DNA from: Isoetes taiwanensis
Taxonomy: Eukaryota > Streptophyta > Lycopodiopsida > Isoetales > Isoetaceae
DNA length: 64,000 bases
Direction: 5' to 3'
Assembly (NCBI GenBank): GCA_021234155.1
Contig: JAJEKV010000128.1
Span: 1,713,736-1,777,735 of the forward strand
Both the position numbers and the translations under genes were made by a program. The notes beneath the pieces are model-generated. The model had not been told where the DNA came from. It searched no databases and saw only the letters and a list, made by a program, of their open reading frames with translations. Each line of letters opens with the position of its first letter. Position 1 is the first letter of the stretch. Positions 2,804 through 40,451 of the stretch are shown here, one piece after another.

Positions 2804-3559
2804 TTCTTTACTGCGTTTTCTACGTTGCAAATTCTTAACCATTTCGTTCTTTACATAGTTCGTTGTTTGTATTTAAGCGATATTTAATTCCAATAGTTCC
2901 TTTATATAGCTTTAACATTTCAATGGTTTATAAACTATAGTTTAATACCCCTAAGGTTAAATGTTTAATCAAATAAAAAGCCCTTGCCTCTGTGTTTGTC
3001 TCTGCAAATCCTTTCTCTGAACCACGCCCCCAAGCTAGTGCCATATCAATTCCCTTCCTTCCCAAGGCTGATCGCCCTCGATCATCTCTGCCTTAGGGAA
3101 ATAACAATCTTTCCCAAAGCTAGTCAACTGACTATCCGCTTTGCTGGAATATTCACCTTTCTTTCCAAGCTAGTCACCTGACTACCTGCTTTGAAAGGAT
3201 TTCTTCTAGGCTGGTAACTTACCATCTGCCTAACAATTCTAAGGGTCGGCTTACACGTCTTTGCGATCCGCGATTTGCCCCTTCTAATTCTAGAGCAACA
3301 TTCATTTGAAACTAAACTTTCATTATCTCAAACCAAATGAATACAATGCTCAAACCATACAACAAACACATGTCTACACTGACGTGTTACTCTACTTATC
3401 TATAACCGATTTGAAGCCCGACTCCTTTCATAAGCTTCCGCTTTTCTTTGTCGGACTTGGCGTTAGGAACCTTCTGTGAACTTTTTCAGAACTTGTACGA
3501 AAACCGCGAACATGGGCAATCCGCTAGATGTTAGGGCTTTTGCTCGAGTATCCTCCTTC

Positions 3560-4620
3560 GATTGCTTTTTTAACCGCTTTTAGATATAACTTTTGGGCAT
3601 TGATTCTTATAGTGCGGACCTCCACATATGAAACATCCTCGGGGTGCTTTTGTTCGCCTTTGGCCGTTCAGATTCCCCATTGCTTCCTTCAGATGCGGTT
3701 TCTTCATTGCTAAGCATGGCACTTACTCGACACCTCTTATTCTCTCTTTGGATGCCTTGCCATTATCTGGCTTAAAATTTTTTTTCCCCCGAGGGTACCC
3801 TCCCGGATATCATACCGCATTATACTAGGATTGAGTTTCATCTCGCAGCTTCAGCTTTTCGTGACCGCTTCATCAATAGTCGATGGTTCGCTAAACATAG
3901 CTCACGCATATAATGGATCTCGCTGATCCGGCTACAAATTTTTGCGTCACTTCACTCAGGAGAGTCCTCTGATTGTAATTCTCCCCATCCGCACCGGGCT
4001 AAGTAGGAGAACTTGGAGTAAAAATGATAAAATCGATTCATGTTTCTTTGGCGTAAAAGATCCCAATCGCTTTTTAAGATCCGGATAATAATTTGCATGC
4101 AAGTTGTGCGACTCGAATGCTTTTCTAAAAGTCTGCCTGAGTTTTTATCCGAGGTAACAATTTCTTCCGGCCCTTGCCACCATATTCTGGCTACATCGGT
4201 TAAATATTTGTCCATAGCTTGCAGTTTCGTTTCCTCAGTAGCTTTAACCCTTTCAAAGAAACTTTCCCCCGCCGGGAATCCCGGAATCGGCTGGCGGACT
4301 GCGTTATCTCCCACGATATTAAGATTCCTTCTACCTTCTCCAACCATTTAATGGGACCTGTTACGGCATTGGCAACTGCAGTAGGAGAATCGGTGGTGGT
4401 GGAGTAAGCTGGTAGGCGTGTTTGCAAGCAAATGCTGGAATATGTCCGGGCGATGCCCAAACGTAATTGCTACATATTCAAGTTTCCTTTGATTTTCCTC
4501 AAAACTAGTAGATGTAGGCATGCCAACTGGATCGCAATGCAAAGCTAAAGCATTCATAGCCCGATTATCTTGGTACGTGGGAAGATTAAATTTGTTCGGG
4601 CCATTACAGGATCTTAGGAT
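3560..4620 (-). pseudogene. Decayed Ty3-type Gag with CCHC zinc knuckle
   Basis: Read from the primer site leftwards, three overlapping frames form a Gag: a leader with an ATG near 4606 or 4556, a capsid-like core at 3952-4347 (KYLTDVARIWWQGPEE and YHFYSKFSYLARCGWGELQ), and a zinc knuckle at 3597-3635 reading CFICGGPHYKNQC, that is C-X2-C-X4-H-X4-C. Gag packages the element RNA; the knuckle binds nucleic acid. Frame changes between the parts show that it is not intact. No protease, RT or integrase lies between the two LTRs, so this is a non-autonomous element that would depend on a partner. Confidence 0.75.
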
Positions 4621-24731: not shown

Positions 24732-27700
24732 ACATTTTGAGAAACGGGACTTTAGTTGGACATTGTCTGAGCCACAGATGGCGCACCTTGGAAATCAACA
24801 GTTGGAGTTTGTCTTTAAGATTTGATGTCTGTTCAAATTTAGAATCCATGCTGACAATGTTTATGCAGATGATTATATCCAATCAAACAAGAAGTACAAC
24901 ATAGATGGTTGTGTTGGATAAGACAAACATATGGAATTGCTGATCAGAAAATGCATTTGGCTATTGAGGTCCTAATGTAATTCGTTCCAAACCTGCAGAT
25001 ACCGCACATGGTAACTGCATAGATAACAGCTAGATCTACATTGTTCCCATGTTGGATAAAGTACTTCATTATCGATTGTTAATATTAACTGCAGATTACT
25101 ACAGTGTGTCATTGTACATTATTGGCATCTACTTAGGACAAATTTTATCTCTGCAAATATAGCCAATCATGAATTAATAAATTGTGACTAAGTTATAGAG
25201 TACATTCAATGTTGTTTGATGTGCAGACCAACTTATGTGTTTGACATTGCGTGTAGTCCAGTAGGACATAATATACTGGCCCATCGCTTATATGTCTGAT
25301 CCATGAAACTGTATTTGTAAGTATATCCAACCTCTTGCATCAACAAAATTGTTGTCTGCTTAACGTGCATATAAATGGGCCTCCAAGGTTCCTACTTTGT
25401 TTGTTGAATTTTGCTACTAAAATGATTAATTCCATGAATAAGAAGGTAACCTAACTAAAAGTAGTTGCTATGCTAGAAGTGGAAGTTGCACATGGATCTT
25501 GACATGACAGATCCATTTCTCCAGAGAAGGGATTGAGAGGATTGTGTATGCTGTATATCAACCATGCGCATGTGTAGTTTCAACATTTTCGTTTTATTTA
25601 ACATATAATCTGACAGAAATATTCAGAATTATTTATAACTGTGTCTCACCAGGTCTGTGCTGTGAATCCAACCAGAGTTATCAATACTATTTGGGAGACT
25701 CAGCCTGCTGTGCATTTGATCTTGCCTCTTCACCTTGCTAAGCACGATTCATAGAGCACCAAGGTACTTACAAAGTTTATAACCATTTAGACTTGCGTAT
25801 TGCTTTCTGAGAAATGGTGTTGAAAATTTCTCCTCTGTTTTGCTGCCCAGATTTTCTTAATACTCAGAGCACTTTACTAGACAATTTATTAATCCTGGGC
25901 TGCTCATTATACCGAGCATATATGCTTAATCCTGATGTACATCTATTGTTTGCGCTTTGAGAAGATGATACGATAGTCATAAACAAACCGAATCTTCAAT
26001 CACACTTTAGCCTATACCCAGCTCCAAAGACCTCTGCATGATGGGTATGTTCAATCTATATTTAAATAGAATTTGGTTATCTTTCTAAGGTGGCTACATT
26101 TCTGCTGGACAAAGCTTATATCATCGTTCGAGCATTTTTGTACGATTCTATCCTTAGTCAAGCACGTGGATACTCAGTGAACTGTAGAGTATTGATAGAA
26201 CGACATTGCATTTCCACAAAATTCCAAGTTAGAATGGACTGTAACATTTCCTCACTCATTTTTTTTTCTAATCTATATCAGCACAACTCAAGTTCCAAGT
26301 CTTTTAATGTGTAAGGAAGCTATCTACAATGAATTCAATCGCATGCACATTTTATATTAACCATAGTTAGTGCTGTCTTATTCACTATGATCTGTTCTAT
26401 TGCTTCTCATTGGCAGAGAAATCTTTCTTAAATAGAGGTTTAAGAGGCTGCCATCGTTACTTTCTATCTCTGAAACATTGATATCTCATGTTTGACATTG
26501 CTGCATCTTTGACATCACAATTCTAGAGGATGTAAAAGGAGACTATGAACTTTGAAATTGAGACAGCGTTCATATACCACTCACTTTACTCCCTAATATT
26601 TTCTCGCTGGAAATCTCTTTCTAGACAGAAACTGTCCAGTTTGTACTTGCAGACTTCATTCTTCTCAATTTACAGCCCCTTACGATTCATGCCACTACGA
26701 ATAGAAAATGACCATGACTAGCTACTGTCACTCATCCATATCATTATGCTTGCTGCACCGAGAGCGTCCAAGGAGGCATTCAAAATTAGGTCATGCAAGA
26801 CTTTCATTTAATGTATATACACCTCAGAACTATGCAAGGCCAAGTAGATTATTTTGCATTTGTACATTATCAACGTCTTTGCTTTTGGTCATGTATTATT
26901 TTGCAGGGCTGGAATGTCTGTACAAGAACATTACAAGTCCAGAGTACATACTATATAATTGATTTGCCTTGGCTATTCTAAGATCACCAATTCAAAATCT
27001 GGAGCCACGGCATGAGACGAGCAGAATTAAGGTGAAGAAAGCATATAATCCCAGCTCCTGTTAGAACACAGTTCTTCTCAATGAAGCAAACACCTATTCT
27101 TATCCTCAATTGCCTTCATTTCTTTGTTCCTAACTCAATACTGCAGCAGTACATAGAGTTTCCTTTAGGAAATATGTCAAGCAAATCTGTCAGTCAGCAA
27201 ATACCTCTTTGCTTTTGCTCAAAGACTCACCAATGGACACAAACATAGGGAAAGCATGATATGTAATTTAACTGTTCATTTGTCATATCATACCCCTGGA
27301 TACATTTCTTCCTTTGGCCAGCTTTATGTATTTCTGTTACTCCACATACATCTTGAAGCTACAAATACAAAAACACCAGTGTATTACTATAGTCACAAAA
27401 TTGTTTTACATTGTTCTTGGCAACGCAGACACACCATCAAACAAGTCAGAATTTGTAGTTTAAAAGATGCAAATGTTCTATGCAAAATCTTTGAGAGCAA
27501 AGCATCATACTTTATCATCCTACTTTTCATCTTTCAAGCTACCATGCCAAACCTTATCTACCCTCTTTCCTTTGATGCATAACTCATCCAAGCTTACCAG
27601 TATATTCAATGCTTATCAATGAGTTCAATCATGGCAATCAATCTTGCAACCTTGCCAAGTCATCCTACAAAAATGACCGCTAGAAAAAAACCATCAATAA

Positions 27701-27935
27701 CCTTTTATTCAATTTCACATAGGATGGAATGTAAGAAATTGAAACATATGGACATCAATGCCAAATCGACTGAGCCCTTGAATTGCACAAATTCAAAGTT
27801 GCACTCCTGCTCTTCCAAATCATATAAGCTTTATTTTTCAAATTTTAATACATTGTTTTACACATATCCACAACTTCATAACCATCGACAACACAATTGT
27901 ATTTATGCCCGGCAATGCCGGGCACCCATTACTAG

Positions 27936-28560
27936 TGAATATTTAAAGGCCTTTGGCTGTATGGCTTTCTCACATGTACGTAAGAAAGTAAGAAAAAAAC
28001 TTGACAATAAAGCAATAGAAGGATTTCTAGTAGGGTATGATGAAATGTCAAAGGGCTACAGGATTTATAATCCAGAGGAAAGGAGGATCATTGTTAGCAG
28101 AGATGTGAAGTTTAATGAAACTATACTTTACAAGAGTAGGAAGGAAATAGACGGTAGACAAGACCTGTTTGGTAATATTGAACACAAGAAAACGGAGATA
28201 AAGAATGCACAAGTAAAACCATATGTAGAAGATGATGATGAACATGCAGTTGAAAAACACAGCAATCAAGATGAGGAGACAACCAAATCAGACCATTTTG
28301 AAGCAAACTGAGAAGAAGAAGTTGATAACGATGAGGAAAATAAAACAGAGAAAATGAACATTAGGAAGAAAACTACTGAGGTCGTGAAATTGAGAGAAGG
28401 ATTCAATGACATAGATCTTGAAAAAAATGGGAGAACCCCTGCTGGTACATCAAAAAGGCTACAAAAGCTCAACATTGAGGTAAATGATATATTGGCAATT
28501 CTGGAGCCTAGTGTGCCTAAAAATTATAACGATGCATTGAATTCAGATAATTCAGACCAG
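27936..28560 (+). pseudogene. Ty1/copia integrase C-terminus and linker
   Basis: The frame resumes after the Helitron with YLKAFGCMAFSHV, then KAIEGFLVGYDEMSKGYRIYNP and VSRDVKFNE. These are the standard copia segments after the integrase core. An acidic, Lys-rich linker follows (28190-28350) with a TGA at about 28309, before the frame continues toward RT. Confidence 0.9.
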
Positions 28561-29215
28561 TGAAAAGATGCAATAGAAGAAGAGATAAGATCATTTGCAA
28601 GAACACAAACATATGAATTGGTGGAGAAGCCTAAAAATAGAAACATTGTAAGGAACAAATGGCTATACAAACTGAAGGTTGAAAATGATGGGGAACAAAA
28701 ATTCAAGGCACGATTGGTTGCATAAGGATTCTCTCAAAGAAAAGATATTGATTATGATGAGACTTTTTCTCCTATTGTTAAACTAATAAGTTTGAGAATT
28801 CTTCTTGCTTTTCCTAATGCATTGGACCTTGAACTTCACCATATGGATGTCAACACATCATTTTTGAATGCTGACCTGCATGAAAAAATTTATATGCAGC
28901 AAGCTCAAGGATTTGAGCAAGGGAAAAATATGATATGGAGACTAAAGAAGGTTGTTTATGGCCTCAAACAATCTCCAAGACAGTGGTACTTATGCATGGA
29001 TGGTTTCCCGAGAGAGCAAGGATTCAATAAACTGCAAAATGATGGTAATCTGTATGTTTATAGGGAGAAAATTCATTTTTGTATCATTGCTCTATATGTG
29101 GATGATAATATTATGGTACGTGATGATTTACAATGCTTAAATCAATGCAAAAATTTGCTGAGTAACAGATTCAAAATGACAGATTTAGGAAATATTGGAG
29201 ATGGAAAATTATCCA
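28560..29215 (+). pseudogene. Ty1/copia reverse transcriptase
   Basis: Landmarks: NKWLYKLKVENDGEQKFKAR (preceding the first RT block; an in-frame TAA follows near 28724), FSPIVKLISLRILLAF, MDVNTSFLNADLHEKIYM, WRLKKVVYGLKQSPRQWY, and ALYVDDNIMV holding the catalytic YVDD. After MTDLGNIG a block is missing: the frame jumps directly to the pre-RNase H segment, so a deletion removed the usual G..i...r....l.q..Y region. Confidence 0.9.
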
Positions 29216-29839
29216 TATAGGGAGCTAGTGGGATGTCTCCTATATGTGGCAAATTGTAGCAGGCCAGATATAGCATTTTGTGTCAATAAGTTGAGCAAAT
29301 TTGGGAACAACCCTAGAAAGCAACATTGGCGTGCAGCAAAGCGTGTACTCAGGTTTTTGAAGGGAACTTGCAATAAGGGTCTAACATTCTCAAATAATAG
29401 TCTTGATCTAACTGCATATTCTGATGTAGATTGGAGAGGAGACATGGACTCTAGAGCATCAATCTCAGGTTACATTTTACAAATTGGACGTAGTACAGTA
29501 TCCTGGAGAAGCAAAAAGCAAGGTTGTATAGCTATATCAATAGCAGAGGCAGAATATAATGCTGCTTCTTTAGCAGCTAGAGAAGTGGTCTGGGTAAGAA
29601 GATTATTGACAGAGTTAGGTTCAGCACAAAGTAAGCCTACTACACTTTTTATTGATAGCATGAGTTGTATAGCCATAACCAGAAACCTAGTATTCCATGA
29701 AAGAACAAAGCACATTGAACTTCATGTTCATTTTGTAAGGGATATGGCTGCAAAAGGAATCATTACAGTTGAGTACATAAATACCCCAGAACAAATTGCA
29801 AATGTATTGACCAAATGGTCCCAGTGCACAGATTTATAA
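29195..29839 (+). pseudogene. Ty1/copia RNase H
   Basis: An open frame carries YRELVGCLLYVANCSRPDIAF, LTAYSDVDWRGD (first catalytic Asp), SWRSKKQGCIAISIAEAEY (catalytic Glu), LFIDSMSCIAI (second Asp) and RTKHIELHVHFVRD. All are standard copia RNase H blocks. The last codons (ANVLTK) match the usual polyprotein end. Confidence 0.92.
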
Positions 29840-30350: not shown

Positions 30351-30450
30351 TTTGTATTGACTAAATTCTAAAGTATTTAGGCTGCTTATCTAACTTGTGA
30401 AAGTTAATTGAGTTAGTTGCCAATCAAATTGCATTGAAATAATTACAAAT

Positions 30451-30527
30451 TGTTTATGAACAAAGTTTAAATTGAAATGCACTTATTTGCTCCAAATGCA
30501 CTTCAGAAGGAATCTTTGAAAGATTCC
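30451..30527 (+). repeat. Left candidate terminal inverted repeat
   Basis: Contains AAATGCACTTATTT (30475-30488) and TTTGAAAGATTCC (30515-30527). The second half is itself a perfect hairpin, GGAATCTTT-G-AAAGATTCC (30509-30527). The spacing between the two conserved blocks is 26 bp here and 10 bp on the right side. Confidence 0.55.
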
Positions 30528-30949
30528 CTAAAAAAGGTCCATTTTGAAGGTTTGTTCATGACAAGTGTGACAATTTAGGTGATTCAGGCACCCTTTTTGA
30601 GGGGTTGATTGAACATAGCTTCTATGCAAAAATATTTAATAGCTATTTTCAGCCTCCTAATTTGGAACAAAAAATAGTTACTTATATGAAGTGTAGCAAA
30701 AAATAGGCAATGAAAAAAACAGCAAGGGTAGTAGAGTGATACAGAAGTGATATATTCAGAGCTTGTGAAAATTTTACAAAATTATGAACAAAATTGTCAA
30801 AAATATAGCACATTTTGACAAAGCCTCATCACTTGCACTTTCTCCTGTTTACATGTTTGAGTCATCGGACGAATCTACATTTTGCAGCAATATCAGGATG
30901 CATGTCATCCTCAGATTCATTTAGTCCTTGATCAGTGGAGCCTTCACTC

Positions 30950-33900
30950 TCAAAAACTGGATGTACTCGAACGATCTTCTTCCTCACTGTCTACATCATC
31001 ATCTTTTTTGGCCACCTTTCTAGTTGTTTATCTAATCCACATGCCGACCTTATTAAAGTTTGAGTGACCGCACGTAACTTATTAGCAGCAGTCAGAACAA
31101 AGTCATATCCAAGAACCTTTACTTCAGCTAGATCTATGATACTAGTGTTTGCTTTAGACTTTGCTCTCATTCCCGCTCCTGTTTTTACCATCTCCAAACT
31201 ATAACTCCCACTGAAAGCATTGGCAACACTTGTTCTCATCCAGTGCACTTTTAATTGAGTGGGAATTCCATCCTCTTTTGTTACCTCTAATACTCTAGCC
31301 AGCCAGAATGGCTTCCCAGTTTCATCATCATCAGCTGGGACAACAACAACATTCATTTTTGAATCTCTGAGATAGAACCAGAAACCCAAGCAACTTGTTG
31401 TGCTGTGCATCTGCGGCCAGTGTACATGACTCTGTCATCTTCATCTGAGCTAGGCATTAGCTGCACATGTTCTTCTTGATTCTCAACTTGCATAGGCAGA
31501 GTTTACCTAGATGGCCAGTTGAATGCAACAGGTCTTCGATTGTGACATGGCTTGTAACATGTCACGTTGCTGAGGAAAAAACTGAGGCCACCATGAAGCA
31601 TCTGCCTCCCCAAAGTGATTAGAGCATGACTGAATACTAGTCTCAATGTAATCCAATGATTTGTTTGAGTCAAATGCTCTTCCCTCCTTTTTACTCTTTG
31701 TGATTTCTTTCAAGCTCTTTAGAGGCATTTGCTCTGCAGAGAGCATGGAAGTAGTCTCGAGGGGATGGTGCGGCCCCGAATTGAATACCATTCTGGCTGC
31801 CAATTTGCAAGGATGTGGCATATTTCTTTCCTTGTAGGATGGCCTTGCCATCTGCGAGTGAGAATTTGATCTGATGCTGAAATGTAATGTTTCGTAAGGG
31901 CTCAATTGCACATTGACCCCTCTCCGAAAAATCCATTCCTTGAAATCATAAGTTTCTTTCAATATCTCGATTTATATGAGGATTGTAGGAGTCTTGGATA
32001 ACCTCAATTATTCTTTGGCGGGGTTGAGAGCTTTTTCGAGCAAGACATTTAGAGAACCTATTGAACATCTGGTCAATTTGATCATGTGTATGACCAACAA
32101 GCAAAAAACCAATCTTCACCTTTTTAAGATTTGTTTTTCAACTAGCATGGCACAGTAAGCAAACAATGCCTGATTCATATTCTCTCTCATCGTGTTGTCT
32201 AGCTGAAGGTATAGAACTGGTGGTATATGCTCCAGACTGGAAAGAATCTTATTCAAAATTGTGATAGTGAGATTTGGATCAGCATGAATATTTGGATAGT
32301 TCAAGAATGCCTTGCAAGAGAGCTTCCCATTAAAAACCATAGCACCAACGACATGCAGATGTATGATCTTCTTCAGGAGCATCCTTAGGCACATTGACAA
32401 AGTGAGGTAAGATGGTCTTCTTCTGGTCCATTCCATCAATAACAACTGATATGTAGTTGAGTGGTTGTTCTAAAGCCTTCTTCCTGTGGTTTGTCAATTT
32501 TCTCCTTTCCAGAGATTGTTGTTCTCTGTGCTTGTTCAGTTTCTCTTTCAATGCATCTGAAATGAAAACATGTTCAGGAAAAAAACCTACCATTGAGTAG
32601 AACTAGGCAAGAGTACGTTGTGGAAGCTTACTTTTAGTGTGAAGTGTCCTTGCATTCTGTCTCTGAGCTTTTAGTTCAGAGCATGTAGCACAAACAGACA
32701 TCCGGTGCTTTCTAGGAATAGACACACGGGAAAATTCTTTTTTCCAGAGCACAGTGAAGTAAGAGTAGCATACATGGCTTTCTCCAGCCTCAACACACAA
32801 ATCCTTATAATTATTGTAGACTTCACATTTCGTGAAGTTGTCGCTCAAATGGTACATAGGGCTGTTAAGCAGTTTCTCGCAAGACTCCTTGAAGAAGCCT
32901 TCCATCCAGGAAACACATTGAAGTGCATGAATTCTGGATATACTTCTGGAATGGCAGTAGTCGTTAATGCTAGGATTGTTGTCAAGCCTTTTCTTCAGGC
33001 GGTGAAGCCGTCTGCTGCCTAAAGCATGAATTATTTTAAGGCCGTTTGACAGATGGTGTGGTCACCAGCTGTGTAAGTAAACTTGTCACCATAATCTGGC
33101 CAAATATTGAAGGCTAAGTAGCCCCTTTGATCTAACAACGTCATTGAACTGTAGTTGTCTCGAATCAACCTTAATTCTTTTAGTCCAATCTTTAGCAAAC
33201 AGCGTTGAAGACAACAATGCTTTGTATGTGTTGCCCTCAAGTGACCCTCATCCATTAGTTTCTTTTCTCCTTTGTGATGTACAAGCTTTCTTTGTGGCTT
33301 TTCACTAGGAGGAGCTTTAAATCGACAAGGGAGACTTAGGTTGTGCTACATCATCATCTCCGAAAGCAACCCCAGGTGTTTCTTCATCTAACAATAGGGA
33401 ATGGACGGTCTACTAGTGGATCTTTGGAGATTAGGCATGGGATGATCTTTGTGGAAGAGATTTGTCTTTCCCTTGGAAAAGAAGTCGAGGTCGGTAACAT
33501 AGTTGAGCAGTCTTTAAGTCTTATAAAACCACGTGAGTCGCGATGATGCCGACCTCCCCACTCAAAAGTGGCATCATATAGTCGATGGATTGAGATGGAG
33601 TGATTTGCGCCAGGTGTAGGCCGCCTAAAGCTGAACTAAGGAGACGGACTAAAAGCGAGCGGGAGGAGGGAGTCTGTGGAGTGAAATGAATGGGTGGAGG
33701 AAGGTTGCGATGTTCTGTGGGTTCTGGTGGAGTAAAATGCATAGGTGGTGGTAAACGACGCAGAGGAGCTGGAGGTGGTGGCGTGAACTACACTAGTGGT
33801 GGAAGCCGATGTGTCTTGGAAGAGGGGGGGCTTTGAGTGTCGTGAGCCGGTTCCTTGGTTAACAACAACTTCTCTATTAGAATTTGTTTCCATTGGCAGA

Positions 33901-33992
33901 GGAATGGGTGTGAAAACCATGGAAGGAGGTAGGAGGTAGCCGGCGAGCAGGACGTGGTGGCTCGCTCTCTTCTCTCCAGCCATAGTGAGCAC
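30950..33992 (-). pseudogene. Transposase-like gene (DUF7869-type RNase H-like core)
   Basis: Starts at ATG 33992 or 33983 (MAGEKRA), with a Pro/Ser-rich first part to about 33.5 kb. Then, minus strand in order: IRDNYSSMTLLDQRGYLAFNIWPD and GDKFTYTAGDHTICQTALK (33.2-33.0 kb); HRMSVCATCSELKAQ (32.7 kb, Cys pair); VVIDGMDQKKTILPHF (32.43 kb); LYLQLDNTMRENMN (32.2 kb); LLVGHTHDQIDQMFNRFS (32.06 kb); and a C-terminal GKPFWLARVLEVTKEDG...LKVHWM (31.3 kb). The D...D...HTHDQID series is what I recall from the eukaryotic family called DUF7869, thought to be transposon-derived. A 75-nt intron (32557-32631, GTAAGC...TTTCAG) is clear. Frameshifts near 32.35, 32.12 and 31.97 kb break it. Confidence 0.65.
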
Positions 33993-34010
33993 TTAGACAC
34001 AGACGAGGAG

Positions 34011-34131
34011 GGTATAAATTTATACAAAGCAAAATCACAAGAGACAAAGAGCGGTATACATTTATACAGAGAGCGTCTAAATTTATACAGTCGCAGTGTG
34101 AAATCAAACAGGGATGGTATGAATTTATACG
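34011..34131. repeat. Four palindrome-related copies upstream of the transposase start
   Basis: GGTATAAATTTATACA (34011-34026), GGTATACATTTATACA (34053-34068), a half copy TAAATTTATACA (34078-34089) and GGTATGAATTTATACG (34116-34131). The first lies 27 bp upstream of the second possible start codon (33983). Each has a TATAAAT-like core, so it may double as a TATA box for the minus-strand gene. Confidence 0.85.
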
Positions 34132-34409
34132 AAAACTTCAGAACACCGTATAAGAAATGCTATGGACAGATTCTATACGGAAGAGCATATGGCAGTAGTA
34201 CTTAAGGGCGGCAGAGGCGAACTCATTATCTATATACGCTGCTTGGCTCGAAGGCGCTCGCGATCTGCCTTATATACTCGCCCCTCTTTGCGACTTCCAA
34301 CAGCTATAAGCATCTTCATACGGACATGGTCATGTAAGTTTCTAACCCGTACCATTTTATTTCTACGTTTCTTTTACTAGCTTAAATGTTCTCTTGTTAT
34401 TGGTCTTTC

Positions 34410-34817
34410 GGTATAAATTTATACCGAGGCTGAACTCCATTGGTATAAATCTATACCGAGTCTGAACTCTATTGGTATAAATTTATACCGAGGAGGTCTC
34501 TCGGTATAAATTTATACCATGTGAGGTCTCCGCGGTATAAATTTATACCGAGGAGGTGGTCTCTCGGTATAAATCTATACCGCGAGAGTTCTCCGCGGTA
34601 TAGATTTATACCGACAAAGTGCTGAGCGGTATAAATTTATACCGCCCGTGCTCGCATGGTATAAATTTATACCATGCGAGCAAGGGCGGTATAAGTTTAT
34701 ACAACTCAGACCTTGGCGATAAATTTTATATCGCCGGGCCAGATAAATTTATACGAGACCACCTCGGTATAAATTTATACTGCTGAGAGACCCTCATACG
34801 CAGATAAATTTATACCA
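34410..34817. repeat. Array of 14 16-bp palindromes, about 31-bp period
   Basis: Unit GGTATAAATTTATACC is a perfect palindrome. Starts at 34410, 34442, 34474, 34503, 34534, 34566, 34597, 34628, 34658 and 34688 give steps of 29-32 bp. Weaker copies follow at about 34716, 34742, 34766 and 34802. Spacers are 13-16 bp and mostly different, but several are related. The array fills the divergent intergenic region between the transposase-like and ParB-methyltransferase genes. Each unit carries TATAAAT on both strands, so it could act as promoter elements, a protein-binding array or a methylation target. Confidence 0.95.
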
Positions 34818-35039
34818 GATGAGGACTGAGCTTAAATCAGTAGATAAAATCATACAGTTTCCAAAACTTTACACTTGTTTTAGGTGTAAAAGCAACGGAG
34901 AAAAGTGTAAAATAACACCTTGTTAGAACTTAATTACAAAAGAAAATAGAGGTAAACCAATTTTTCGCGACGTTTAAGCCTGGTTTTTACGCGTTTTCAT
35001 CACAAAGATAACCTTTAAAGGCAAAGGTCAACAGTCAGC

Positions 35040-36383
35040 TCCGAAGCCCCAATCCTAGAACTCAGGGATGTTACGTGGTACGTCCACATGGGAGCTAGGG
35101 ATCGCTACCCCACTTATGCGTATCTGTACGTTTGCAATAAGACAGGAAGGGGGAAGTTTAAGGCTGAGGACTACTACCCTGCGGGAGAAATGAACAAGCC
35201 TGACGGCCACAGATAATGAAGACGAGATCTTAATGAATTGCATAAATGATGAAGGTGATGTCTAGTACTTTCTGAGCAGCACAATGTTCAGAATAAGCAT
35301 GTGCAAGCCAAAGGATGTTAATGAATATATTTCAGAGAACAACAAACTTGGCTACATGAGTGTGATCCTCTCCCATTTGTCTTTTATTCCTTTACCTTAT
35401 AAATTTATACAGGCAGAAAGCTAACTGAACTTCCTGAATGCAGGATATAGTAGACATTTTGTCCTCAGTCATTTTGTGTGACGAAAAAGTAATGGTGAAG
35501 GGCTCGGTACCCGGACAAAGGAAGAAGTTGAAAAAAGACTTTTTAAATAAGAGGAGGAGGAGGAAGAGGAGGTGGTAGTCACAGGGAAGGGGAAGAGGAA
35601 AGCTTTGGTCATTCACTCACAGGCACCAAAGAAATCTAGGAAGACCAAGGCCTTGACAACAGAAGAGTCTGCAGAAGCACTACAAAAGGCACCTGGGGCC
35701 GACATTGTTTTGAGACCCTCGGACAAGTCAAGTGAAATACTTAAAGAGTAAATGAACCAAAGCTTCTAAAGCAAACATTTTCCTTAACTCTAAGCACTAT
35801 CAAGGGGCCGCCAAAAAATGAGGACGGGGTCAGAGTTCTTCAAGTACGGAAGTTGTACGCAGCACATGTGGCAATACTAAAGCAAAGAATGCGCAGAAAT
35901 CCACATGCCCATGTGTCGCCTCTGGTTGTTATGGTTGACCGAGAGCAGGTCCAAGAGCTCAGGCATTACAAGAAAGCCGACTTTTGAGGACTACACATAT
36001 TATGTTCCTATGGAACACACAATTACAAGGCCAGGAAGGAGCTATCTAAGGAGGAAAGCAGAAACGAGGTCTGGAAGAGCGTGGAAGCCCATATTTACGT
36101 TGGGTTGACAGACGAGGAGGCCAAAGTCATTGCCGTGAGCCACAACCTGGCAATGACTTTAGGTTGAAGATGAGCCTCATAGACAAAATCCGCTTCATGC
36201 ACAGAGAATACGTCTGAGTTCAAGCAATTGCATGGAGAGGACTTAAAGAAGCAGAAGAACAAGCTCCAAGAACTTCGGGAGGCTTGTGTGATAGAATGTT
36301 GCTTGAATGACTCTGATAAGAAGCCCATCATGGCAGTAAAGCAATACGATAACTACTTCCAACTTGCTTTCAGAGATGGCCAA
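35040..36383 (+). pseudogene. ParB-methyltransferase gene, N-terminal part with ParB/Srx-like domain
   Basis: First recognisable exon reads DVTWYVHMGARDRYPTYAYL and, after a frame change near 35.21 kb, STMFRISMCKPKDV; I cannot name this part. An intron from about 35371 to 35441 (ends CTGAATGCAG, one palindrome inside) leads to DIVDILSSVILCDEKVMVKG and an acidic plus Lys-rich linker. At 35.9-36.15 kb come PLVVMVDREQVQELRHYKKADF, then YGTHNYKARKELSKEE and EAHIYVGLTDEEAKVIAVSHNL. This is the ParB/sulfiredoxin-like pattern (G-x-H-x-x-x-A...ELxxE...V-x-x-GL-x-D-x-E-A...HN). Stops (35252, 35989, 36165 regions) and frame changes show decay. Confidence 0.65.
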
Positions 36384-36713
36384 GTAAGTATTTCCTCCTT
36401 CCTATTTAATTTTGTTACAAGGTAGTCTAGAATGTAGTTTAGATAAGAACCCGCCATTGAATCGGTTATAAATTTATACCGCCTTGGAGCGGTATAAATT
36501 TATGCCACGTTATAAATTTATACCGTTCTAAACCGAGGACTAAGTCATACCTCGGCCTTCTATGGTATAAATTTATACCGTTGCATGGAGGGAAAATTTT
36601 ATTACTGCGGTCGAGAACGGTATAAATTTATACCGTCGCCTTGACTGACTCTAGAATTTATTGTTCCACAACTATCCTCATGCATTAAGCTGCTTGTCCT
36701 CAATTTTCAACAG
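36384..36713 (+). other. Intron of the ParB-methyltransferase gene with five palindromes
   Basis: Donor GTAAGTATTT follows FRDGQ and acceptor TTTTCAACAG precedes VWDLQERIFCMFEDG; phase is kept. Palindrome copies lie at 36465-36480, 36491-36506, 36509-36524, 36564-36579 and 36619-36634. The surrounding exons contain none. Confidence 0.75.
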
Positions 36714-37690
36714 GTGTGGGATCTGCAGGAAAGAATCTTCTGTATGTTTGAGGATGGTGAACTTAAAGACAAGCTAGCACCACTGGTAAAAAAACAAAAA
36801 AAGGTTCTAACAATAAAATATGAGCATAGTGCCATGGACACAACTACAGGGCTTGAAGAGCAAAGAAATATTTGTGCGGCTCCTGGAAAAAGTTGTTGCG
36901 AAAGAATTTACTCTCGACGAAATGGCTAAGGAAACTAAGATGTAAGGAACCTTTACTATGCGTTGTACTTAATCCATTTCTTTGCTTAACAATCTCTTCT
37001 TGTTTGCAGTTAGAAGGACATTGTCACATGCCAGTCCAGTTAATGAAGCAACTAAATTTAGAAGACTGGGAAGAGTGCAAGCTTCTTTATCCCACTTGTA
37101 CAACAGACAGCATAATACGAGAACACATTGTGAACTTTAGTGGATGGGTGAGTTTTGTAGACTACGTGTTTTGCTTTTGTGCCTTAGCCTTACTCTTTTC
37201 TTACAGAACAAGAAGAAAGGACTGCCAGCAAGCTTCTTGAATCTAGTTCGGAGGGCCAAAGAAGAAAGGCAAAGACTAAAGACCATCGAACAAAGGCAAG
37301 CGGGTCGATCAAGCGGTTCCGACGGTGGCTAATAGAGATTTACTACCTATGGCTGATCGCTTGTACCAGGTTGTACATGGGGACTGCACTAAACTGGGGA
37401 CCCTTGTGAATAAACAGAACTTCACATTGTGCATAGCTGACATTCCCTACGGGTTTAAGATCAAAGACAGTGTTTTTGATGATGAGGCTTTTACTCATGT
37501 ACAAGTAAGAGCCTTCTTGGATGGCCTGAAGGAAGTCACCTTTATCGGCGAAATTGAGGGTCATAATCTTTCATTCCAACCACACCAAACAATGTATGTG
37601 CTCAAACCCATGACAATGGATGCGCAGAACGCCATTTTGCAAATTGCAACCGGTAAGCCTCATAGTCATTTTCGTTTCATATTTTAACAA
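36714..37690 (+). pseudogene. ParB-methyltransferase gene, middle exons and methyltransferase motif IV
   Basis: Exons 36714-36941, 37010-37147 and 37207 onward are separated by 68- and 59-nt introns with GTAAGG...TTTGCAG and GTGAGT...TTACAG. The protein is helical (KYEHSAMDTTTGLEEQ, LNLEDWEECKLLYPTC, KKGLPASFLNLVRRAKEER) and then enters a catalytic domain: LYQVVHGDCTKLG (37.37 kb) and LCIADIPYGFKI (37.43 kb). DIPYGF is a variant of the D-P-P-Y/F motif IV that binds the target base in amino-methyltransferases (N6-adenine or N4-cytosine). A further segment with VQVRAFLDGLKEVT follows before a donor near 37652. Confidence 0.65.
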
Positions 37691-37698
37691 GACCCTAT

Positions 37699-37824
37699 TG
37701 TATAAATTTATACCGCAGAAGCCTTGCGGTATAAATTTATACCCAGATTCATGGGATTTAGATTTACAATCAAGAGCGGTATAAATTTTATACCACGGAA
37801 GCCCCGGCCAGATAAATTTATACC
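37699..37824. repeat. Four palindrome copies in the next intron
   Basis: TGTATAAATTTATACC (37699), GGTATAAATTTATACC (37728), GGTATAAATTTTATACC with an extra T (37778) and AGATAAATTTATACC (37810). They follow a GTAAGC donor near 37652 and precede renewed coding sequence at about 37.9 kb. Confidence 0.85.
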
Positions 37825-37879
37825 GCTTTCCTTTTTTACGCTTGACTTACCATTTCTTTACGCCCGTGTTGAAGACAAA

Positions 37880-38533
37880 CGCCGAAGGTCTTCCATTGAG
37901 GGTCCACGAGTTAGTCACCGCTTCGAACACTTTCACATAGGCTACTACAGCGCTGACACCAAAAAGACAATGGTGCACTTTAACACTCAAAGTGAGAAGA
38001 CCCCACCATGCAATGCATTCCAATTCCTATTTTGTCTTCTAATGAGACCCACGAGGCAAGGCGCTAGGGTGTCCCACTACCAAAACCCCGTGAGGCTAAT
38101 TAACATCTGATACAATGGTTTTCACGCCACGGGATTTGGGTTTTGATGTTTTTTCGAAGCGCACCATAGTTATATGCTCTTAAGCGAGGGCGTAATGTGG
38201 TGTCAGTTGACATAGACCCGGACAAAATCAATTTTATTAGGACCAAATAAGTTCCTGTGAGTCCTTTCCTGATGAAAATGGGAATTGGGAGCAAAAAATG
38301 GTGCTGCGGATGTCAAAGGCACCTACACTGAAATCCAGCCTCCAATAACAGGAAGAAAAGATGAGGAGGTGGAGTTTGTAGATCTTGAATCAGTGGAGCT
38401 AGACCCCCCCAAGCAGCCTGTTCCAGTACCCTTAGAATCAGAAGCATGTGTCTCTGGCTTTGTGGCATCACAAGGAACAGACCCAAAGGGAGATGAAAGC
38501 CCTGTGGACTGGGAAGAACCTCCCCCCGTATAA
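37880..38533 (+). pseudogene. ParB-methyltransferase gene, C-terminal catalytic half and tail
   Basis: Frames read LPKPREAN, stop, HLIQWFSRHG (38.08-38.14 kb), then a degenerate VLDVFS segment, and KRGRNVVSVDIDPDKINFI (38.18-38.24 kb). This is the KP...l.....s..g..VLD.F.GsGtt...a...gR...gvdid order of motifs X and I, placed after motif IV. That order defines the beta class of DNA amino-methyltransferases, common in phage and bacterial ParB-methylase proteins. The glycines of motif I are lost here. A last acidic, Pro-rich tail (38285-38533) ends in a TAA that lies inside a palindrome copy. Inactive by decay. Confidence 0.6.
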
Positions 38534-38580
38534 ATTTATACCAACAGGTTTCAATTTTAAAATGTCGGTATGATTTATAC
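38527..38580. repeat. Two palindrome copies at the 3' end of the methyltransferase gene
   Basis: CGTATAAATTTATACC (38527-38542) supplies the stop codon of the upstream frame, and GGTATGATTTATAC lies at 38567-38580. Confidence 0.8.
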
Positions 38581-38996
38581 GAGAAACGCTCTAATATTTA
38601 TGACCTTTGTATAAAATGTATTGTATTATAAATTCAAGAAGAATTTTGAAATGGAATCTATTATTCTATCTCCAGCAATGTTTAATTAGAGCAACTACCA
38701 TTTATTTTCTACATGCTTTATTCTTTTGTTTCCGTAAAGTACACTTTAAAGGCATTTGCAAATTATGATGCAAAAAAACACACTGTATTTGCTTCGTTTT
38801 TAACAAAATTAAATTGTTGGTTCTCCAATATTAGAGTTAACCACCTTAAAACTGTCTTTTTTTTTCTTCTTCTATTTCTTTTTTAATCACATTTCTAAAA
38901 GTGTTACTTTTTATGTAGTCTTCCGAACACCACGTGTTCAACAATCTTTCCTGCTCCCTATTTCGTCTCTTTTTTTAATTTTCCAAAATTCTCAAA

Positions 38997-39057
38997 GGAA
39001 TCTTTCAAACGCACTTCTTAAATAAGTGCATTTTGTTTTCAACCTTGTTTACTTACA
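38997..39057 (-). repeat. Right candidate terminal inverted repeat
   Basis: GGAATCTTTCAAA (38997-39009) and AAATAAGTGCATTT (39020-39033) are exact reverse complements of blocks in the left repeat, and CAACCTTGTTTAC just outside matches the left flank with few differences. Confidence 0.55.
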
Positions 39058-39084
39058 CATTGTTTAACAATTGCAACATCTCTT

Positions 39085-40451
39085 CAAGGCATTGCATGAC
39101 ACTGCCCCATGAAACTAGAGGATTTGACTATAGGAAGGATGAATGGGCCAGCATCTTCAATTCATGTGAACCCAATACCGGGGCATCGACTACCCAAGAA
39201 GCTACTCTTGCAACTTGACAATTGTGCTGGCCAGAATAAAAATAGATACTTGTTTGCATACTTGTTGCAGCTTACATGGGTTGGAGTGTTCGAAATGGTC
39301 TATGTTGGTTACTTGATGCATGGCCACACTCCGCGAGGTTTATTGATGCAATGTTTGGGCATTATAGGATCAAATTGCCCAGAAAGTGATGTCACCACCC
39401 ATCCAGGAGCTTTTTGGAGCTATTTAAGCAATGTTCTTCCTTTGCCTCCTATTGGTTCATTGATACAAAGAAGTCCCGGTAGGAAAGAATTCATAGAGGG
39501 TTATGCTGCGTGAAGACCTTATTGGGCATAGTGCTCCATTTGCAATTTAGGTTTTGGGTGAAAAATGGAAAGCCAATAATGCAATATGATGAGAAATTTG
39601 GAGATCTATGTGGAAACCGGAAGATAAGGATATATTGATTTGGAAAGAGGATGTGGCAGGTGAACCAACGGTGCCGATGGGAAAGCCTACGGCTATGAAA
39701 CCATTAGGATAAGTAAAGGACTATGAACGGACTATGGAAGGGATAATGGAGTATATAAAGTACTGGGAGAAATCCTTAGCAGATAAAGACATAGCACCAG
39801 AGAGAAGAGCGTGCAATGAAGCACTTGCAAATTATTGGAATGAAGTTCATATACTTTTGGGGAGTTTGGACACAAGTAATAGTGTCCTTCGAGAGGATTG
39901 GCTACCTCAAAGTCGCTGGAGGCTCAACCGTGGTCAATTTTAACCTGATCAGCAGCCAATCCACTTGATGACAGAGGAGTCTGAAGAGGAGGTGGAAGAG
40001 GAAGAAGAGCACTATGTTGGACCTAGAAAAGAGCATCCCAAGTATTATGGACTTGCTCCATATGATCCTAAGATGGATTTGAAGGATGGCCAATATTTGG
40101 TCGGCAGGCCATCAGATGAAGATACTTATCCTATTTGGTTAGGGTACCGCCTCAAGCATTTGTAGGGAAGCTAATAACCCTAACAGAAACAAGGTGTATG
40201 TGGAGTGGTGGCGCCCAGTAAGTGGAAAAGGAGTCATTACTGAAAAAGAGCGCTACAAAGATTGTTTTAATAAGCAATGGAAGTATGATGCAAGTGATCC
40301 GCCCCAATGGGTGGAAATAAAGTCCGTGTTGATGTCATGGAACCCCAGAAAGGGCAAGGTGGATCCGAGAAAGAGGTACATGAAGATTCCAATCTTTGTG
40401 AAGGATAAAGTTCTGAAGTCACTAGAGAAGATAGCCGAACAAGCAAAATAA
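39085..40451 (+). pseudogene. Second transposase-like gene fragment (DUF7869-type)
   Basis: Begins near the second catalytic region: LPKKLLLQLDNCAGQNKNRYLF (39.2 kb), then a hydrophobic strand and HGHT; one base shift later FIDAMFGHYRIKLPRK, so the usual GHTHEDIDAMF block is frameshifted. The C-terminal part reads GQYLVGRPSDEDTYPIWLGY (40.1 kb) and KVYVEWWRPVSGKG (40.2 kb), the same PFW/PIW...W layout as the minus-strand gene's end, and stops at 40449. It shares family but not close sequence with the 31-34 kb gene and lacks the N-terminal half. It starts just outside the right terminal repeat. Confidence 0.6.

Follow-up and report, generated by a model that had tools for sequence, protein, structure and literature searches.

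A DNA transposon family of Isoetes taiwanensis that encodes a ParB-like methyltransferase and carries family-specific palindromes: a candidate self-marking system

The DNA analysed here, hereafter the window, is a stretch of 64,000 nucleotides from Isoetes taiwanensis (assembly GCA_021234155.1, contig JAJEKV010000128.1, positions 1,713,736 to 1,777,735). It contains a degraded copy of a DNA transposon, referred to as family A, in which a transposase gene and a gene for a ParB-like protein fused to a DNA methyltransferase are arranged divergently, head to head. The non-coding DNA of the element carries a repeated palindrome, and related families in the same genome carry palindromes of their own. 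This association may reflect a system by which each family marks its own copies. Genome-wide searches and counts refer to the whole assembly (1,658,258,908 bases in 1110 contigs), and copies and loci are cited by number (L001, L002 and so on).

Ends, target duplication and copies of the element

The element occupies positions 30459-39049, its two ends each lying 8 bp inside the limits first proposed. The inverted arms (30445-30488 and 39020-39063) are 44 nt long and 75% complementary, and their reality is supported by the recurrence of the ends at other places. With the left 1.2 kb as query, the best 40 of 1462 candidates were scored and gave 41 matches, of which 28 start at query positions 15-21 (window 30454-30460); with the right 0.4 kb, 26 of the 40 matches obtained from the best 40 of 1139 candidates stop at query positions 399-402 (window 39048-39051). 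Because left and right matches begin and stop at the same window positions, the ends are real and have been reused at other sites. The terminal inverted repeats so delimited are AACAAAGTTTAAATTGAAATGCACTTATTT on the left (30459-30488, plus strand) and, as the reverse complement, AACAAGGTTGAAAACAAAATGCACTTATTT on the right (39020-39049, minus strand).

The four bases flanking the element are identical at both ends in three of five independent insertions (AGTC in L002, GATA in L006 and CATA in C1045). L003 agrees at three of four bases, the window at two, with a decayed TATG on the left (30455-30458) and TACT on the right (39050-39053), and the window's duplicate L001, which reads TACG on the left, at three. 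The target duplication is 4 bp long and has decayed in some copies. A duplication of 8 bp (ATTGTTTA in the window, TCCATAG in L002) was also considered and dropped, as the 4-bp version directly abuts the ends.

Copies L002, L003 and L006 reach both ends of the element but have internal deletions, and L012 stops a few bases short of the right end. Methylase exons lie inside the element ends in these four copies as well as in the window and in L001. Family A, in which the ends were mapped, has a DUF7869 protein between terminal inverted repeats together with a 4-bp duplication, as a DUF7869 DNA transposon does; this type of transposon may be linked to the Sola superfamily, which also has a 4-bp duplication. 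Inverted terminal blocks and a transposase-like gene had been noted in an original prediction made from the letters of the window alone, and both are confirmed. Two further loci (L004 and L005) match the element over its left 1.4 kb and no further; they have the same flank and some frames beyond in common, and may be methylase-free derivatives or a duplicated site.

The two divergent genes

The transposase gene (30875-33983, minus strand, approximate ends taken from the copies) is broken in the window, where an open reading frame (ORF) at 32116-32469 on the minus strand matches DUF7869 (PF25273, E 2.3e-21); the same family matches an ORF of copy L007 with E 7.3e-44. Stops and frameshifts affect both the transposase and the methylase gene of the window copy. 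The shared upstream region between the two genes (33984-34325) holds four palindromes (34011-34131). Much of the transposase is replaced in L003, in which a minus-strand frame resembling, by eye, an FCP1/NIF-type phosphatase (L003:1625-2413) continues into the transposase C-terminus and a second, unrelated frame of 457 amino acids lies at 3216-4586, possibly a case of gene capture that replaced most of the transposase.

The plus-strand gene (34326-38533) has a guessed start codon and a TAA stop codon inside the last palindrome, and comprises six exons, numbered 2-7, preceded by a putative first exon. Exon 3 (35447-36383) includes the ParB-like region from about 35844, exons 4-5 (36714-37147) a stretch recognised by eye as resembling a helix-turn-helix (HTH; FTLDEMAKEAKTQKDIVTCQSELMKQL in the letters of copy L003), exon 6 (37207-37652) the methyltransferase motif IV, IADIPYGF (37433-37456), and exon 7 (37871-38533) the motifs X and I, the latter reading FSGTGTT in other copies; exon 7 is frameshifted in the window. 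In L003, a single frame runs through exons 3-6 into the start of exon 7, bar one in-frame stop in exon 3, and exon 7 is frameshifted further downstream. The predicted protein consists, in order, of an N-terminal part, the ParB-like region (YYVLGGTHSYKARKEL ... GLTDEEAKVIAVSHN), the HTH-like stretch and a beta-class methyltransferase.

The methyltransferase is recognised by PF01555 (N6_N4_Mtase), with E 1.3e-12 and 48.6 bits for an ORF of copy L002 (cut-off 26.7), and five of six aligned members match this family, the sixth being without motif I. The motif order IV ... X, I is present, motif IV being DIPY or DLPY in families A, B and D and DIRG in family C (these families are described below). 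Among solved structures, the closest by profile comparison are the N6-adenine enzymes CcrM (4.3e-12), MboIIA (7.9e-12) and RsrI (1.2e-8), the N4-cytosine enzyme PvuII coming far behind (3.2e-3). From these comparisons, the enzyme is most likely a beta-class amino-methyltransferase of the N6-adenine type. The original prediction had read the gene as ParB/Srx together with amino-methyltransferase; its methyltransferase half is confirmed, and the ParB similarity is weak. Matches of the ParB-like part to Pfam and PDB were all sub-threshold, sulfiredoxin being matched at E 0.8-2.1 and DUF6551 below the cut-off in six of eight cases. From about the HTH-like stretch on, the family-B protein (residues 214-543) aligns with the phage methylase family phrog_67 (E 1.5e-20).

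Gene pairing, selection and origin

The ParB exon has at least 150 matches in the genome at 79-100% identity (best 150 of 3018 candidates scored). With these scored exons as reference, a ParB exon lies no farther than 4 kb from at least 15 of the 40 right ends, each time within the element and in matching orientation (0.03 expected), and none of the 40 has one within that distance in any other arrangement; the remaining 25 may be accompanied by unscored ParB exons or by none. Methylase genes outside the terminal repeats had been named beforehand as evidence that would count against the prediction, and among the scored exons near the right ends none is so placed. The original proposal of a mobile element that encodes a prokaryotic-type, ParB-like methyltransferase is supported.

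Selection was assessed by the ratio of nonsynonymous to synonymous substitution rates (dN/dS), calculated pairwise and not on a tree. Pairs were dropped if their dS was zero or, through saturation, undefined, or if they had fewer than 50 codons; the most diverged pairs are consequently under-represented and the size of large dS values is unreliable. In family A, the median ratios are 0.14, 0.09 and 0.15 for exons 3, 6 and 7 (10 of 21, 4 of 10 and 7 of 10 pairs usable), and two transposase exons gave 0.21 and 0.17 (10 of 10 and 21 of 21). In family B, they are 0.04 for the ParB exon (7 of 21) and 0.03 for exon 7 (16 of 21), and the two usable pairs of exon 6, out of 21, gave 0.06 and 0.35. Decay after insertion raises dN/dS, yet the ratios are low, and both proteins have therefore been kept by selection: transposase and ParB-methylase were both under purifying selection while the elements multiplied.

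The derivation by transfer from a bacterium or phage that had also been suggested did not find support. Three scans of viral_contigs and one of genome_contigs yielded no prokaryotic or viral relative, and no close relative of the family-A protein was found among phages. Phage methylases are 22-26% identical to the family-B query among the matches listed (25 of 1965 records), which is too distant to name a donor.

Palindromes in the non-coding DNA of family A

The 16-bp palindrome GGTATAAATTTATACC occurs 26 times in the window with up to three mismatches (0.32 expected), always within 34011-38542 and, except for 4 nt at the gene end, always in the non-coding DNA of the element. Apart from the four sites of the shared upstream region, there are 12 in an array with a spacing of mostly 29-32 bp, located upstream or in the first intron (34410-34816), one in the intron preceding exon 3 (35396-35411), five between exons 3 and 4 (36465-36634), three between exons 6 and 7 (37699-37824) and one that overlaps the last codon and the stop codon (38527-38542). 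In the window, L001, L002, L003 and L012, the methylase stop codon lies inside the palindrome (GTA TAA ATT TAT ACC). The genome contains 7218 exact matches, the reversed control giving 0. Of the 113 sites in six copies of family A, five overlap matched coding sequence, in each case over the same 4 nt where exon 7 ends, although 54% of the span is made up of matched coding sequence; copies hold up to 26 sites each.

Subterminal repeats are common in DNA transposons, and the transposase varies between families as the sites do. On these grounds, the transposase could be the protein that binds the palindromes, which would then be internal repeats for the assembly of the transposition complex. The six measured copies make this quite improbable: the transposase gene is free of sites, as are the outermost 3.5 kb on the left and 0.38 kb on the right, the first site being found beyond the transposase gene.

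The sites are largely located in transcribed non-coding DNA and partly in tandem arrays, as would suit a structural role, either as hairpins that influence the splicing or stability of the RNA or as hitchhiking minisatellites. Such an explanation is very hard to reconcile with the pattern of conservation and is considered extremely unlikely. Conservation is higher in the palindrome core than in the remainder of the same introns (0.824 versus 0.531, 0.699 versus 0.472 and 0.766 versus 0.407, gaps counted as changes), and this holds with every reference copy (9 of 9, 8 of 8 and 17 of 17). In family A, the central bases, which would form the hairpin loop, are as conserved as the arms, and the RNA hairpin is rejected for this reason; the same is not true of the central CpG of family B. 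Single sites also occur outside arrays, and the sites are private to the methylase clade across four families, as described below.

Below 130 bp, the spacing of sites falls mostly at 28-32, 21 and 42 bp in family A (119 of 172) and at 41-42 bp in family B (51 of 65). The classes of 21, 31-32 and 41-42 bp are near whole helical turns and that of 28-29 bp is not. Since tandem duplication makes spacing counts dependent on each other, this is only a hint of helical phasing.

Related families with private palindromes

The search of the genome with PF01555 gave at least 150 matches (best 150 of 1444 candidates scored), every scored one being above the cut-off. The 18 loci cut out belong to family B (17 loci) and family D (L029), and L020 also belongs to family B. 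Family C was first met beside copy L009 and has at least 150 matches at 73-97% identity (best 150 of 1999 candidates scored). The family-B transposase is head to head with the methylase and of the same kind as that of family A (68% identical over the DUF7869 part by tblastn); that of family D is also head to head and matches DUF7869 in Pfam with E 2.5e-54. In family C, at L009, a DUF7869 frame lies downstream of the methylase on the same strand.

Family C (L018, L019 and L009:107-636, plus strand) encodes an abundant methylase-like protein with open frames of up to 672 amino acids, and its palindrome is ATCGCGGCCGCGAT. Its motif I reads FSAGTAS, and comparison of this protein with a profile built from families A, B and D gives an alignment at E 9.4e-5 (probability 59%), with DIRG at the position of DIPY. 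Judging from these motifs, the protein has probably lost catalysis and represents a non-catalytic relative kept at high copy number. In family D (L042-L044, L048), the translations of the ParB exon are 100% identical at three places, and stop-free transposase frames of 494 and 600 amino acids lie beside one of these, which suggests recent activity.

Exact genome matches number 3392 for the family-B palindrome, 961 for C and 64 for D, against 0, 0 and 11 for the reversed words; the four palindromes together have 11,635. A blind count of palindromic 12-mers was made in 38 loci and the window element, shuffled sequences giving at most two of any word. The word TATAAATTTATA came top in all 12 gene-bearing family-A loci (6-23 times), as did TCGCGGCCGCGA in the family-C loci L018 and L019 (four and three times) and TATGAATTCATA in the family-D locus L029 (three times). 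Among the 18 family-B loci, TATTCCGGAATA was repeated in 11 (2-6 times), single in four and absent from three (L030, L032 and L036), in which the centre is TCCAGA instead. Of the other family-C loci, L014, L015 and L017 were without such a word and L016 had one.

In the loci examined, the sites of each family are almost exclusively found with their own family. At up to two mismatches, the 12 family-A loci contain 225 A sites, no B site and one C site, the 18 family-B loci 98 B sites and none of A or C, and four family-C loci 22 C sites and none of A or B. Family D was scored at 0-1 mismatches, as its sites are indistinguishable from those of A at two; five D copies (L042-L046; L029 is the same place as L043) contain 13 D sites and none of the other three families at up to one mismatch. 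Of 50 listed D sites (64 in all), 20 are no more than 4 kb away from a D ParB exon, seven such exons being considered (0.0017 expected), and for 36 another D site is found within 4 kb.

The palindromes of families A, D and B (GTAT-AAATTT-ATAC, GTAT-GAATTC-ATAC and GTAT-TCCGGA-ATAC) share the frame GTAT-N6-ATAC, which is lacking in the unrelated palindrome of family C. The proteins of A and D are 62% identical and their palindromes differ at 2 of 14 bases; those of A and B are 51-54% identical and their palindromes differ at 6 of 14 bases. Site distance thus follows protein distance. The intron that holds the main array separates exons 3 and 4 in A but exons 4 and 5 in B, and sites between exons 6 and 7 are found in both.

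ParB/KorB-type proteins are repressors, and the main rival to self-marking is that the ParB-methylase is mainly an autoregulator, which would bind the promoter and intron arrays, lower (or raise) transposase and methylase expression and in this way set copy number, methylation being secondary or directed at transcription. Sites do lie where a regulator would be expected, in the shared upstream region of A, in the D intergenic region (L048 5873-5935) and upstream of the ParB exon in B (L020 928-1012), and family C retains its sites without the catalytic motif. This alternative, which deserves serious attention, is nevertheless judged unlikely: 10 of the 26 window sites belong to later introns or to the 3' end, as many as 26 sites per copy exceed the need of a repressor, and selection on the methylase domain is strong.

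A model of sequence-specific self-marking

Marking of the element's own copies against silencing is the interpretation that we favour. We consider it somewhat more probable than its negation that the transposon encodes a ParB/parS-like, sequence-specific self-marking methyltransferase with an anti-silencing role such as that of VANC in Arabidopsis. Besides its transposase, each family encodes a ParB-like protein joined to a beta-class amino-methyltransferase. The ParB/HTH part would form a dimer and bind a palindrome of 14-18 bp that is specific to the family and resembles a parS site. The element has multiplied this palindrome in its shared promoter, introns and 3' end. The bound enzyme, an adenine methylase to judge by its motifs, would methylate bases in or near the sites, the adenines of the GTAT...ATAC half-sites being candidates, and would in this way mark the copies of its own family. 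The mark would probably keep regulatory DNA open against host silencing, with little effect on site-free DNA.

That the protein reads the palindromes is inferred from their pairing, as the sites follow the ParB-methylase clade and surround its gene, and dyads of 14-18 bp fit a dimeric HTH or ParB reader. Palindromes near the gene are found in the manner of parS in the ParB superfamily, and arrays of a family-specific motif in the non-coding DNA of the element in that of VANC-type systems. The three families with DIPY or DLPY share GTAT...ATAC and family C does not, and on the strength of this single exceptional family it may be that the outer GTAT...ATAC is methylated and the centre recognised. 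That a mobile element may mark its own copies had been part of the original prediction; the family-specific palindromes, which that prediction did not mention, support it strongly, if indirectly. The broader proposal, that ParB-methyltransferase lineages radiated with private palindromes within one plant genome as a self/non-self DNA-modification system, each family recognising and chemically modifying its own copies alone, appears to us evenly poised between right and wrong.

Several observations weigh against self-marking. The ParB/Srx part finds its best match in phrog_1033 ('ParB-like partition protein', E 1.1e-5), and only with the family-D relative; comparison with four ParB proteins by hhalign aligned the right motif without significance (E 0.18 and 0.19; control 0.63). 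Standard N6-adenine enzymes have DPPY as motif IV, where this protein has DIPY or DLPY. Sites seen inside elements are those of the examined loci and the D list, not all 7218 of family A, and the palindromes could serve another protein of the element. Family C keeps its sites despite the probable loss of catalysis, which would make methylation dispensable in that family. In the family-B loci (L020-L028 and L030-L038), the centre reads TCCAGA or TCTGGA 81 times and TCCGGA 44 times, core bases other than the central CpG being nearly invariant. The loss of this CpG is likely a footprint of host CG methylation reaching the sites, or else the true B site tolerates the change; on the former account, any protection would be incomplete or not lasting.

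Comparison with known systems

The closest parallel is found in the VANC proteins of the Arabidopsis VANDAL transposons, which are Mutator-like elements (PMC5735166; PMC10398659). As described in the available portions of these reports, VANC21 and VANC6 target family-specific motifs that form tandem repeats in introns and upstream regions and undo silencing within their own family (PMC5735166), and RNA-directed DNA methylation targets the same non-coding regions (PMC10398659). Both systems involve a transposon-encoded protein and a family motif multiplied in the element's own non-coding DNA and rare elsewhere, and in both, related proteins go with different motifs. In contrast with VANC, which those portions do not describe as a methyltransferase or as ParB-like (PMC5735166; PMC10398659), the Isoetes protein carries a modification enzyme; its motifs are palindromic, and its element, unlike VANDAL as there described, is a DUF7869 transposon with a 4-bp duplication. 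The Isoetes element may by analogy work like VANC with a different enzyme, and if so it would be a second, chemically different answer to the problem that VANC solves.

ParB/parS systems and the ParB-methylase gene pairs of phages likewise combine a ParB-like part beside a DNA methylase with palindromic sites. The Isoetes protein differs from them in being fused to its methylase, in being encoded by an intron-bearing gene of a eukaryotic transposon and in its weak ParB similarity. In the Klebsiella phage VLCpiS13f (L039:761-2292), a ParB-like gene and the DNA methylase gene that follows it share one base, the last of the former and the first of the latter, and this pair is possibly the prokaryotic counterpart of the fusion. 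If the model holds, a ParB/parS-like reader and a DNA methylase would be acting in eukaryotic nuclei.

DNA-modification enzymes have been reported in other eukaryotic elements. As far as the consulted parts of these papers go, DIRS elements carry Dam-like N6-adenine methylases and other retrotransposons carry DNA methyltransferases (DNMTs) under purifying selection (PMC5890265), and TET/JBP enzymes occur in fungal DNA transposons (PMC12730594). These elements resemble that of Isoetes in bringing their own enzyme, and the DNMT case also in purifying selection; they differ in enzyme class and mostly in element class, and private site arrays are not mentioned in those parts. No DNA transposon with a ParB-like beta-class methylase and no modification enzyme paired with private site arrays was found in the literature searched, which consisted mostly of titles and abstract openings and included few subscription journals.

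Mobile elements of prokaryotes use such methylases to mark DNA that is to be silenced, to gain immunity against competitors or, as in restriction-modification, to protect DNA from a nuclease. A role of this kind for the Isoetes enzyme is supported by N4CMT of bdelloids, which, according to the accessible text, deposits N4-methylcytosine (4mC) at transposons in silencing (PMC8885841). We regard such a role as very improbable, as no nuclease was recognised in the element by the family scans made of its frames and the sites are located in the element itself. Like that of Isoetes, the bdelloid enzyme is an N6_N4_Mtase-type amino-methyltransferase of the prokaryotic kind that is found in a eukaryote; as far as that text goes, it is a host gene with the motif SPPY and a chromodomain that helps to silence transposons (PMC8885841), and the Isoetes enzyme differs from it in being element-borne, with DIPY or DLPY and a ParB-like part.

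If self-marking is correct, self and non-self would be distinguished at thousands of sites in the two largest families, and the paired series of proteins and sites, with one frame (GTAT-N6-ATAC) and three centres, would constitute a natural specificity code. The 11,635 exact sites make a sequence-specific function of N6-methyladenine (6mA) or 4mC in plants testable.

Sequences flanking the element

Directly to the left of the element, positions 27583-29839 of the window contain remnants, recognised by eye, of a copia-type retrotransposon polyprotein. To the right, part of a second, different DUF7869 gene (39100-40450, plus strand) starts 51 bp past the element's end, its frame at 39100-39513 matching DUF7869 with E 1.1e-15.

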